From contig NZ_CP017305.1 of the NCBI RefSeq assembly GCF_001747405.1, forward strand, positions 328,001-392,000: DNA of 64,000 nucleotides. The letters are read 5' to 3'. The notes below the pieces were generated by a model. The model made no database searches and was not told the DNA's origin. It saw only the letters and a list, made by a program, of their open reading frames with translations. A program made the translations under genes and the position numbers. Source of the stretch: Chlorobaculum limnaeum (lineage in GTDB: Bacteria; Bacteroidota; Chlorobiia; Chlorobiales; Chlorobiaceae). Positions 30,559-35,578 of this stretch are shown piece after piece. Each line of letters begins with the position of its first letter. Positions within the stretch are counted from its first letter, which is position 1.

Positions 30559-31272
30559 TTATCGGCGGATGAGGTCGAGAATTTCCTGAATGGCTGCCGG
30601 TAGGCCGATAAGCACGGCGCGGGAGATGATGGCGTGGCCGATGCTCACCTCCTCGATGTCGTGCAGCTCCTTGAACGGTGCGATGTTCAGTACGCTCAGG
30701 CCGTGCCCGGCAACCACGGTCAGCCCCATTTCGCGGGCGATGCGTGCCGACTTGCGGATGCGCTCCAGCTCTTCCGCTCGCTCTTCATTGCTGGTGAGGA
30801 GCGAGTAAGTGCCGGTGTGAAACTCCACGATATTTGCCCCCGCTTCGGCGGCCAGCGCGATGGCTTCCGCCTCCGGCTCGATGAAGATGCTGACGCCGAT
30901 CTCCTTGTCACGCAACGGCTTGACGAATCCGGCGAGGCGGGTGAAATGCTTCTGGATGGCGAATCCACCCTCGGTGGTCAGCTCTTCGCGCTTTTCAGGC
31001 ACGAGCGTGACGAGGTTGGGTTTGACCGCAAGCGCGACGGCCTGCATCTCGTCGGTCATGGCCATTTCAAGATCGAGCTTGGTGGTGATCTCTTCCCTCA
31101 GACGGGCGAGGTCGTCATCCTTGATGTGGCGGCGATCTTCACGCAAGTGGCAAACAATGCCCGCCGCACCGTGCTTTTCGGCGAGCAGGGCCGCTTCGAC
31201 GGGATCGGGATGTCCCTCGTTTCGAGCGTTACGCAGCGTGGCGATATGGTCAATATTGACGGCAAGTCTCAT
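30559..31272 (-). CDS. pdxJ: Pyridoxine 5'-phosphate synthase
   Basis: Condenses 1-deoxyxylulose-5-phosphate with 3-amino-2-oxopropyl phosphate to make pyridoxine phosphate. The 237-residue TIM-barrel protein starts [18 protein letters not shown] and has [40 protein letters not shown] and [12 protein letters not shown], all family landmarks. First gene of a pdxJ-rdgB-uppP run. One substrate, DXP, is made by dxs in this window (36950-38884). Confidence 0.96.
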
Positions 31273-31365: not shown

Positions 31366-31505
31366 CCTGGGAGAGCCGAGCTCCAGCTCGGCTCTTTAAT
31401 CTTGGTATTCAACTCATGACGATCCTTTTGCTTCCATTTCGTGAGACCGATCAAGATTTGAAGCCTTCGGTTTCACGTGCCAAGCTGGAGCTTGGCGCTC
31501 CCAGG
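31366..31505. repeat. CCTGGGAG-ended inverted-repeat element
   Basis: A 140-base element. The left end is CCTGGGAGAGCCGAGCTCCA and the right end, read in reverse complement, is CCTGGGAGCGCCAAGCTCCA. Each arm is itself nearly palindromic around CCAGCT/AGCTCC. Its right end joins directly to the broken doc remnant. A half copy is at 33027-33080. Confidence 0.75.
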
Positions 31506-31676
31506 AAAAAACGCTCGCAGGGCACAGTTTCAGCCATCGTTTTTCTCACGTTGAACGGATTCGATTTCGAAGCGCCGGAAGACGATCTCGTTGAAATGGT
31601 TTAAGGCGTCGCTAGAAGAGAGTTTGAAAAGGCTGATGTGGCGGTGTTTATGAGGGAGTGGATGAGAAAAAGTTGA
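31506..31676 (+). pseudogene. Remnant of a Doc (death-on-curing) toxin gene
   Basis: The frame starting at the repeat edge encodes VSAIVFLTLNGFDFEAPEDDLVEMV, then a stop (TAA, 31602-31604), then in the same frame GVARREFEKADVAVFMREWM up to a TGA at 31674-31676. This matches the C-terminal third of Fic-fold Doc proteins (LVFLxLNGxxLxAxxxxL...VA). The Fic active-site half is missing: the sequence to the left is the repeat element. So the gene is both truncated and stopped. An ATG-started frame at 31416 runs from inside the repeat and is probably not a real gene. Confidence 0.65.
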
Positions 31677-31913: not shown

Positions 31914-32450
31914 CTACGAGTGCGGTTCATTCATATTTTTTTCAAAGCGAAAGAAATCAGCGAAATAATCAGTTTCAGGAAACTTTTCTGCCTCATCTAT
32001 TTCATTTGGATCATTATGATATTTATTAAAATACTCAACAATATGAAAACCGCATTTATTTACATAGAAATGTATATTTCGTTTTTCAAAGTACGGAGTA
32101 TGTGTTTCCCATGTTTTTGTTTCGGGATATTGTGCTTCGATCGCATTCCAAATTAATAAACCAACACCTTTGCTGTGGGTCCCTTTTTTCACATAAAGAA
32201 AATCTAGATGATTATGGTGTGTTTCATTATTGATAAGAACAACTGCTCCACCAACTATTTCTCCATTTAGAATAGCTTCATAAGCACAAGCACCTTTTGC
32301 AGATAGAGAACGGTCAATATCTCTTTCAGGAAGTATCTCTATATCTATATCACTAAATTCATCAACTGCACCCTGTTGAAATGACTCCTGCATATCTTTC
32401 TTGAACTGTGATAAGTGTTTAGGGTTAAGTGGTAACAACTGGAAGCACAT
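31914..32450 (-). CDS. GNAT-family N-acetyltransferase
   Basis: A 178-residue protein with the GNAT fold. The central strands include EAILNGEIVGGAVVLIN and LDFLYVKKGTHSKGVGLLIWNAI; the latter holds the acetyl-CoA-binding loop in place of Q/RxxGxG/A. It ends with the YVNKCGFHIVEYF block typical of the family C-terminus. Substrate unknown. Codon use is AT-rich, as in surrounding DNA, which suggests horizontal acquisition. It stands alone. Confidence 0.8.
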   Translation of the reverse strand: MCFQLLPLNPKHLSQFKKDMQESFQQGAVDEFSDIDIEILPERDIDRSLSAKGACAYEAILNGEIVGGAVVLINNETHHNHLDFLYVKKGTHSKGVGLLIWNAIEAQYPETKTWETHTPYFEKRNIHFYVNKCGFHIVEYFNKYHNDPNEIDEAEKFPETDYFADFFRFEKNMNEPHS

Positions 32451-33026: not shown

Positions 33027-33080
33027 TCAAGACGAGAAGCCTTCGGCTTCATGTGCCGAGCGGGCGCTCGGTGCTCCCAT
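33027..33080. repeat. Half copy of the CCTGGGAG-type repeat
   Basis: Contains AGCCTTCGGCTTCATGTGCC and GGGCGCTCGGTGCTCCCA. It parallels the right arm of the element at 31366-31505 (AGCCTTCGGTTTCACGTGCC, then CTTGGCGCTCCCA). Confidence 0.6.
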
Positions 33081-33173: not shown

Positions 33174-35578
33174 ATGGTGAATATGGACGAAACGACAGCG
33201 ACGGCATCGGTCTCTCTGCTCAGAAAGCTTGAGTTTGACAAGGTTGCTCGTCATGCGGCGGGGTTCTGTATCTCGGAGATGGGGAGCGATCTCGTTATGG
33301 AGATGGGGCTTCCCGATGAGTGCGAGCGGGAGCTGGTGCGGGTGCTTGAGTTGAAGAATTTTCTGCTCGAAGGCGAGCCGTTGCCGTTTTCGCGCCTGCC
33401 CGACACACGCTTTCTGCTCGACAAGCTCGAAGTGCTCGACAGCTGGCTCGATGCCGCCGAGCTGCTCGATATTTTTTACCTTCTGCAAAGCGCGGCGCAA
33501 CTGCGCAAATTCATGTTCGCCAGCCGCGAGCGCTTTGCGGAACTGAACGAATTCACCATCCGCCTCTGGCTCGAAAAGAGCATCCAGTACTCGATTTCGC
33601 AGGCTATCGACGAGCGGGCCGTGGTGCGCGATACGGCCAGCGACGCGCTGTACGAAATCCGCAAAAGCCTCGGCGAGGCGCGGGACGGGCTGCGGCGCAA
33701 GATGGAGCGCATCCTGCGGCGCTGCCAGGCGGAGGGGTGGCTGATGGAGGATACCGTGGCGCTGAAAAACGGCGACAGGTGCTGGCGCTCAGGGTCGAGA
33801 ACAAGCACAAGCTGCACGGCTACATCCAGGACTACTCGCAGACCGGCCAGACCGTGTTCGTCGAACCGGCGGAGACGCTCGAAATCAGCAACCGGATTCA
33901 GGAGCTTGAAATCGCCGAGCGGCGCGAGATCGAGCGCATCCTGAAAGCGCTCTCCAACGGTGTGCGCCAGGAGCTGGAAAACGTGCGCCACAACGAGCGG
34001 ATCATGGCGGCGTTCGACTCACTCTATGCGCGGGCGAGGCTCGCCGTCGAGACCGCCTCCACGCTGCCGCAAATCTCGGCGGGGCGGCGGCTGAAGATCG
34101 TCAGGGGCTACCATCCGTGGCTCTTCATTTCGCACGGCTTTTCGAAGGAGAAGGTCTTTCCGCTCGACCTTGAGCTTGGCGAGGAGGAGCACGCGCTGGT
34201 CATTTCGGGGCCGAATGCGGGGGGCAAGTCGGTGGCGATGAAGACCGCCGGGCTGCTCGTCTGCATGTTGCGCCACGGCTATCTCGCGCCGTGCAGCGAG
34301 AGTTCGGTGTTCCCGCTCTTCAACGGCATCTTCATCGAAATCGGCGACGAGCAGTCGATCGAGAACGATCTCTCGACCTTCAGCTCGCACCTCTCGGCAA
34401 TCCGCGACATTCTCGACCACGCCGCGCCCGACAGCCTCGTGCTCATCGACGAGCTGTGCTCCGGCACCGACGTCGAGGAGGGGAGCGCCATCGCCCGCGC
34501 AGTGATCGAAGAGCTGCTCGCGCGCGGCGTCAAGACCATCGTGACCACGCATCTCGGCGAGCTGAAGCTCTACGCCCACCGGCGCGAAGGGGTCGTCAAC
34601 GGCGCGATGGAGTTCGACCAGCACGGCCTCGCGCCCACCTTCCGCTTCCTCAAAGGGGTGCCGGGCAACAGCTTTGCTTTCGCCATGATGCGGCGCATGG
34701 GCTTTTCGGAGGAGATCGTCAGCCGCGCCACCGGCTTCCTCAAGGGCGGCCACGCAGGGCTGGAGGAGATGATCGAGGATTTCCGGCAGGGCGTGGAGAA
34801 GAACCGCCAGCTCGTCGAGGGGCTCGAAAAGGAGCGGCGGGAACTCGATGCGATGCGCGACGCTGCGGCGACGGAAAAGGCGGAGCTGCGCAAGAAGGCG
34901 CAGGAGCTGAAAAGCCGCGGCCTGCGCGACCTCGACCGCCAGCTCGAACAGGCCCGCAAGGAGATTCGCGACCTGGTGCGCGAGGTGAAGGAGCATCCCG
35001 GCGACGAGGCGGCGCTGCACAAGGCGCGGACGCGGCTCGCCGGAATGAAGCAGGAGGCCGGGGCGAAGGAGGAGGCGCTGGAGAAGCAGTTGCTTCCGGC
35101 GGCGGACATGAGCATTCGGCCCGGCGACACGGTCAGGATCGGCGACACCAACACCACCGGCGAGGTGGAGTCGATCCAGGGCGACTCTGCCGTGGTGCAG
35201 TGCGGCAACTTCCGCCTCACCACCGCCTTGCGCGGCCTTGAAAAGATTTCACGCGCCGGGGCCAGGAAGCTGCAAAAGGAGGCGACGACGGGCGCGGCGG
35301 CGGGCAAGAGCTGGTCGGTGCAATCGACGCCGCTTGAATCGACGCGTCTTGACCTGCGCGGTCTGACCGGCGACGAGGCCATCGCCGAGATCGGGCGATT
35401 CATCGACGCGCTGGCCGTGCACCGGATGCCGTCGGGCACGATCGTTCACGGCAAAGGCTCCGGGGCGCTCCGGTTGCGCACGGCTGAATTCCTCAAGCAG
35501 CACCCGCGCGTCAAGAGCTTCCGGCTCGGCGACTGGCAGGAGGGCGGTGCGGGCGTGACGGTGGTAGAGCTGCGGTGA
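33174..35578 (+). pseudogene. mutS2: MutS2-family ATPase/endonuclease with a -1 frameshift
   Basis: MutS2 acts on recombination intermediates or collided ribosomes in other bacteria. The reading frame from 33174 encodes about 200 residues up to VALKNG. The correct continuation, QVLALRVENKHKLHGYIQDYSQTGQTVFVEP, lies in the -1 frame from about 33773. Joined, the protein is about 800 residues: core domains, Walker A GPNAGGKSVAMK, Walker B VLIDELCSGTDVEEG, coiled coil, and a C-terminal Smr nuclease domain (RLDLRGLTGDEA, IVHGKGSGALR). One missing base near 33771-33773 explains the shift. The run GAAAAAC lies just before it, so sequencing error, real mutation or slippage are all possible. Confidence 0.9.

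Follow-up and report, generated by a model that had tools for sequence, protein, structure and literature searches.

In the window, the whole 64,000-nucleotide stretch of Chlorobaculum limnaeum DNA that was analyzed (genome G000, 2.80 Mb), the C-terminal coding part of a doc toxin gene lies directly beside an element with inverted-repeat ends, which raises the question of how the toxin gene came to be broken there and what part the element played. The original prediction held that the element, or recombination at it, destroyed the gene; this is supported by intact copies of the locus in relatives, by a junction between repeat and doc that is shared with other genomes, and by a RAYT gene at the same site in two of them (G006 and G015). 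The wording “the element, or recombination at it” is also as far as the evidence goes. Beyond that prediction, we found that the element is a REP doublet, that the antitoxin gene was lost as well, and that the junction is common to several species. Very probably, the locus is the wreck of a two-gene toxin–antitoxin (TA) operon between pdxJ and mutS2, in which a RAYT and REP doublets occupied the operon, a doublet was joined to doc in its middle part, the antitoxin gene and about 75 doc codons were lost, and the RAYT disappeared later. We regard it as well-supported gene decay connected with mobile repeats, and as a rather ordinary instance of it.

The doc remnant and the element beside it

The doc remnant (31506..31676, + strand) is a pseudogene that corresponds to the C-terminal part of a Doc/Fic toxin gene. 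Its frame, KKRSQGTVSAIVFLTLNGFDFEAPEDDLVEMV*GVARREFEKADVAVFMREWMRKS, has its first base at 31506, directly after CCCAGG, is interrupted by a TAA stop read directly at 31602..31604 (+ strand), as had been predicted, and ends with a TGA at 31674-31676. Compared with the Doc protein of G003, a relative with an intact gene, the remnant gives an E value of 4.6e-20 and 75% identity over query residues 75-125, with the one TAA. The Doc part had been predicted to start exactly at the right edge of the element; the reading frame does so, while DNA homology to intact doc that BLAST can detect begins at 31521, 15 bases past the element. The 15 bases in between read KKRSQ and may tentatively be likened to the NKR of the Fic motif.

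The window has lost the entire antitoxin gene and about 75 doc codons, including the one for the catalytic histidine. The expected loss of the Fic active-site half holds for the HxFxDG part of the motif and everything before it, but not for the K and R of NKR, which are apparently kept beside the junction. Measured against TIGR01550, the model for full-length Doc with its Fic motif, the window copy lacks the part before NKR, has the TAA inside, and scores 22 bits (cut-off 38.65), and a Pfam search with the remnant fragment alone matched no family. It carries several amino-acid changes relative to the intact doc genes, and the ORF that covers its first part begins at 31416, within the REP doublet. 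Since the H, F, D, and G of the motif are among what was lost, the stub should not, judging by its sequence, be an active toxin. Elsewhere in the same genome there is a second Doc-like gene (G000:C1:2152575-2152883), with an open frame and 44% identity to the Doc of G003.

The element itself (31366..31505, no strand assigned), of which there are homologous doublets in G006, G015, and, for the right part only, G010, is 140 nt long and, read directly from the window, starts with CCTGGGAG and ends with CTCCCAGG. Its left REP (31366..31395, + strand) consists of CCTGGG and the hairpin AGAGCCGAGC/GCTCGGCTCT; folded as single-stranded DNA, the stretch 31366-31399 reaches -12.1 kcal/mol (z -4.49, none of 200 shuffles as good). 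The right REP (31477..31505, - strand) is an inverted copy, recognized by its fold and by pattern matches in the genome, and between the two lies a spacer (31396..31476, no strand assigned) of a locus-specific subtype, as judged by searching a 28-nt spacer pattern in 21 genomes of the genus. With three bases past the element end included in the folding input, the right arm (31477-31508) has a z of -2.12 (6/200 shuffles as good) and the whole element (31366-31508) a z of -5.75 (0/200). Further copies, which the original prediction had pointed to as a check, do occur in the same genome: a 27-nt REP pattern with up to three mismatches matched eight times at six places, the reversed control giving 0, and two of the eight matches are the arms of the element itself. 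A half REP element of the same family (33027..33079, + strand), found as an 81% match to the query part spanning the right end of the element, lies just upstream of mutS2.

Given its inverted hairpins, the pattern copies in its own genome, and the presence in relatives of a RAYT between such repeats (see below), the element is a REP doublet, of the kind named REPIN in PMC3116915, with a non-canonical tag. As far as the available parts of PMC3116915 and PMC2817692 describe them, REPINs and their RAYT share with this family the two inverted hairpin repeats around a spacer, a RAYT flanked by such repeats (here in relatives), dispersed copies, and several doublets beside the RAYT. They differ in size, the window doublet being longer, at about 140 nt, than the GI doublet of SBW25, in which 71 bp separate the first residues of the two 16-mers. 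They differ also in number, since this family has few copies, with no close RAYT left in the genome, and REPs usually exceed 100 copies per genome, according to the part of PMC2817692 available. A further difference lies in the tag. Canonical REPs have GT[AG]G 5′ of the hairpin, in the account accessible in PMC6006769, whereas neither GTAG nor GTGG precedes the hairpin here; the sequence at the tag position is CCTGGGAG in the window and likewise beside the doc stubs of G006 and G015, and the tag region at other RAYTs reads CCTGGGAG, CCTGGGAA, or a CCGGGAG-like sequence. With a tag of CTGGG, or CCGGG at some other RAYTs, instead of GT[AG]G, the element is thus an atypical REP. It has no shown role at the locus beyond marking the break point. 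In green sulfur bacteria, the family represents REPs whose tag departs from the canonical one; CGTC-tagged repeats have been reported from Chlorobi (PMC3733652, from the part available).

The toxin–antitoxin operon in related genomes

The branch to which the window belongs comprises 12 genomes in which pdxJ was found, G001 (pdxJ not found) being kept apart. Four of them (G002, G003, G012, and G017) have a 75-aa antitoxin gene followed by doc (127-128 aa) between pdxJ and mutS2. The Doc of G003 passes both PF02661 (68.8 bits, cut-off 24) and TIGR01550 (75.3 bits, cut-off 38.65), and the motif of the intact proteins is HPFLDGNKR, or CPFLDGNKR in G017; it fits the Fic motif of Doc, HXFX(D/N)(A/G)NKR, from which G017 departs at the first H (PMC13034048, in the part available, which also has Doc of the known kind phosphorylating EF-Tu). 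In the length of Doc and the small antitoxin gene upstream, the operon resembles the phd-doc module (Doc, Fic fold, TIGR01550). It differs in that the antitoxin is AbrB/MazE-like and not recognized as Phd, with scores for the G003 protein below both relevant cut-offs (TIGR02609 doc_partner, 22.5 against 55.9; PF04014, 15.1 against 24.7), and the window copy differs further in being a stub without the catalytic part. A search for the antitoxin found it in 5/21 genomes of the genus and gave no match in the window's genome.

The four intact loci also bear on whether the remnant is what it seems. By itself, the fragment falls below the TIGR01550 cut-off and matches no Pfam family, and one might suppose that its likeness to Doc is due to chance, or that the element belongs to an ordinary coding sequence. 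Both ideas are effectively refuted by the comparison: chance was ruled out by the E value to the G003 Doc and by a gene order kept in four relatives, and the sequence of 31366-31505 is absent as coding DNA within doc from all four intact relatives, which agrees with the original prediction.

In the remaining eight of the 12 branch genomes, doc is broken or was not found, and at four of the breaks (G000, G006, G010, and G015) stands the same REP end. The order pdxJ, REP elements, doc stub is common to G000, G006, and G015; the mutS2 of G006 is on a different contig, and that side of its locus is outside view. In G010, the right part of a doublet and the doc stub are on the mutS2 contig, and a decayed antitoxin start, recognized by eye and missed by the antitoxin search, lies next to pdxJ on a separate contig. 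Within their matched part, the remnants of G006, G010, and G015 contain no stop, compared with one TAA in the window copy. In G016, a doc remnant is joined directly to another gene with no REP, and G011 has a doc pseudogene with three stops; as doc is broken in both without a REP at the break, REPs are not required for its loss. No doc was found in the draft assemblies of G009 and G013, one of which is 88% complete and the other 9% contaminated. Outside the set of 12, G001 carries a doc that is almost complete but altered at its end, as well as a stub adjoining GCGCTCCCAG on a different contig. Across the genus one can see an intact operon, an array with a stub, a single doublet with a stub, and an apparent complete loss. 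Eight further genomes (G004, G005, G007, G008, G014, G018, G019, and G020) have pdxJ and mutS2 a few hundred bases apart with no doc between them, suggesting that the operon probably entered the pdxJ–mutS2 site within a single branch of the genus; a weak Doc match (28 bits) lies at another place in the genome of G020.

Two of the genomes with the REP end at the break, G015 and G006, carry a RAYT gene (219 and 202 aa, respectively) and several doublets between pdxJ and the doc stub, with the last doublet abutting the same doc remnant. In these relatives, the genes pass both NF047646 (cut-off 80; 87.7 bits for the L033 ORF of G015 and 80.8 bits for the L035 ORF of G006) and PF01797 (cut-off 23; 33.9 and 33.5 bits), and copies of the same repeats surround them. 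This association of repeats and RAYT was found in relatives, namely in G015, G006, and, by eye, beside all six further RAYTs read elsewhere in the genus, a set from which the RAYT of G014 was left out. Strong RAYT relatives (≥180 bits) occur in 9/21 genomes of the genus, two of them with stops. The window contains no RAYT gene and its genome no close one, the best matches there reaching 21.6 and 20.4 bits. In-frame stops interrupt L054 of G010 (one) and L057 of G005 (two); some RAYTs in the genus are decaying while the repeats persist.

Origin of the junction between repeat and doc

The REP end lies at the same position of doc in several genomes, the right REP end abutting the same doc region in G006, G010, and G015 as in the window. 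We compared the window spacer (31393-31480) with the spacers of the fetched loci and found 85.5% identity over 83 nt to the doublet of G006 that is second from the doc stub, 85.7% over 42 nt to the abutting doublet of G006, 84% over 51 nt to the doublet of G010, and 80% over 56 nt to that of G015. With up to three mismatches, the 28-nt spacer motif occurs at six sites in 4/21 genomes of the genus (reversed-pattern control, 0 in 21), all six lying in doublets within about 320 bases of a doc remnant. Among seven control stretches taken from other doublets or RAYT flanks, one of which is just 30 nt long, six had no match at any other fetched locus; the seventh, from the left end of the RAYT of G001, had matches at the doc stub in at least G015 and G010, 40-41 nt long and comprising a REP and a short hairpin. 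At the left junction, G000 agrees with G006. Such confinement of the spacer motif to doublets at doc remnants in four genomes suggests that the junction is probably of single origin.

In detail, the four stubs are not identical. The right junction CCCAGG-AAAAAACGC is common to G000 and G015, G006 and G010 carrying less doc sequence, and just inside doc the sequence is TGTCGGC in G006, G010, and G015 and TTTCAGC, like the intact G002, in G000. The four stubs are consequently not one plain haplotype. A crossover within the stub could account for this pattern, but a few bases prove nothing. We also compared two other copies of the element in the window's genome, near 1799 kb and 1569 kb, with the corresponding sites of six and eight relatives, respectively. 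At 1799 kb, G010 has the element too, and in G002, G003, and G017 two genes nearly touch, without the element and about 200 surrounding bases. At 1569 kb, the doublet is complete in G016 and has lost its right half in the window's own genome, and the flanks of the remaining relatives diverge before or at the element. Neither place offers a clean empty site, and no genome has an undisturbed doc with the doublet alone inserted.

We favor the following course of events. The original state would have been an operon of an AbrB/MazE-like antitoxin and a Doc/Fic toxin between pdxJ and mutS2, which a RAYT with REP doublets presumably came to occupy. One doublet end would have become fixed in mid-doc, at the region of the Fic motif, having reached it either through transposition or because REP copies recombined with each other, and the antitoxin gene with the first ~75 doc codons may have been lost through side effects of transposition or recombination between repeats. 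In the lineage of the window, the state of G006 and G015 suggests that further recombination removed the RAYT and the extra doublets and left one doublet. That this doublet is the leftover of an array is suggested by the match of its spacer to the second doublet of G006, as would be expected, and the doc stub would then have acquired its stop and continued to decay. Because the antitoxin and the toxin core are missing together, their loss need not have poisoned the cell, and the locus would offer a multi-species example of a chromosomal TA module lost without poisoning at the site of a RAYT/REP array. REPs within coding sequences are known, one example occupying roughly the same site in two species (PMC3733652); in the GTAG- and CGTC-repeat cases covered by the part of that paper available, they lie inside ORFs, whereas in the window a REP end stands in place of both the 5′ portion of a gene and the partner gene. 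The literature searched, to which subscription papers did not belong, held no account of a REP-truncated doc locus.

The trees of the flanking genes complicate a simple descent. In those of pdxJ and of the start of mutS2, the four carriers (G000, G006, G010, and G015) are interspersed with the four intact species; the allele state requires four changes on the former and three on the latter, and a single clade of carriers was rejected in AU tests whose groups were named after the allele states had been seen (p 3e-41 for pdxJ and 3e-66 for the mutS2 start). As the carriers form no clade there, a single vertical event is insufficient by itself, and one allele, broken or intact, has probably moved between species by recombination. 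The stub is too short to decide, no branch being resolved in a doc-remnant tree of 12 rows; tests on it, with groups likewise chosen once the states were known and with two rows left out (the pseudogene of G011 and the end-altered gene of G001), rejected neither a clade of all four carriers (p 0.167) nor one of G000 and G015 (p 0.31). Exchange of the locus among species would be the simplest reconciliation of the shared junction with the trees, repeated insertion being the alternative, and the conflict makes such exchange testable. A bolder version, that the RAYT/REP array allele (or its intact counterpart) spread across the genus by homologous recombination with crossovers in the stub, acting as a transferable, recurrent “off switch” for a chromosomal TA locus, seems to us improbable.

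Repeated insertion, in which the doublet or RAYT struck the same doc position separately in several species, overlaps with the course of events that we favor and would account for the scatter of carriers among intact species on both trees, as well as for the junction details and first doc bases by which G000 departs from the others. The spacers at the junction are, however, mutually homologous, with a motif found nowhere else in the 21 genomes, most control stretches (6/7) matched no other fetched locus, and the left junctions of G000 and G006 agree, which together render this reading unlikely. Slightly less so is the possibility that breakage came first, by ordinary deletion or rearrangement, with the REP doublet present by chance or arriving later and taking no active part. 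The locus does look fragile, given the remnant of G016 without REP, the three stops of G011, the pieces of G010 on two contigs, and the drafts G009 and G013 without doc; but the same REP end, with a homologous spacer, meets doc within a few bases of one position in four genomes, and a passive break would not place the same doublet there unless the four carriers share one event. One might also imagine that the doc stub is still a functional small gene, for example encoding a truncated protein that binds an antitoxin or another Doc, given that the remnants of G006, G010, and G015 lack an internal stop and that the genome holds the open-frame Doc-like gene at 2152575-2152883. With a stop and several amino-acid changes relative to intact genes in the window copy, an ORF over its first part that starts in the REP doublet (31416), and no antitoxin found in the genome, we consider this very improbable. 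The wreck of a TA operon occupied by a RAYT/REP array remains our preferred reading of the locus.

Neighboring genes

To the left of the locus is a 237-aa ORF (30559..31272, - strand), which we take from its sequence to be pdxJ; an orthologue was found in 20/21 genomes of the genus, the window's own included, with 72-100% identity. To the right, mutS2 in the window has one base fewer at 33772-33773 than in G002, G003, and G016, a 1-nt deletion that splits the gene into the overlapping ORFs 33174-33944 and 33737-35578 and reflects either a pseudogene or a sequencing error.

An integron was considered, because the genes downstream of doc vary and some relatives show a GCCAAC...GTTAGC look, and the idea was then dropped. 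Across the eight loci searched, a strict attC end pattern had a single match, which fell within the window's own element and doc stub and carries no meaning. An integron integrase above the cut-off was found in 2/21 genomes of the genus (G013 and G006) and in 0/14 control genomes; the window's own genome has no intact one above the cut-off and carries a broken relative (G000:C1:2299992-2300810; 108 and 90 bits, one TAA).

A gene for a GNAT acetyltransferase (31914-32450, - strand; PF00583, 37.8 bits), set in visibly AT-rich DNA, lies in the gap that separates the doc stub from mutS2. Relatives carry other ORFs in the same gap, which seems to collect foreign genes. In G010 (L034, G010:C121:29500-35000), the doc stub stands 3′ of a two-gene pair, presumably nucleotidyltransferase/HEPN-like as named from sequence, so that a TA-like module adjoins the wreck of another.
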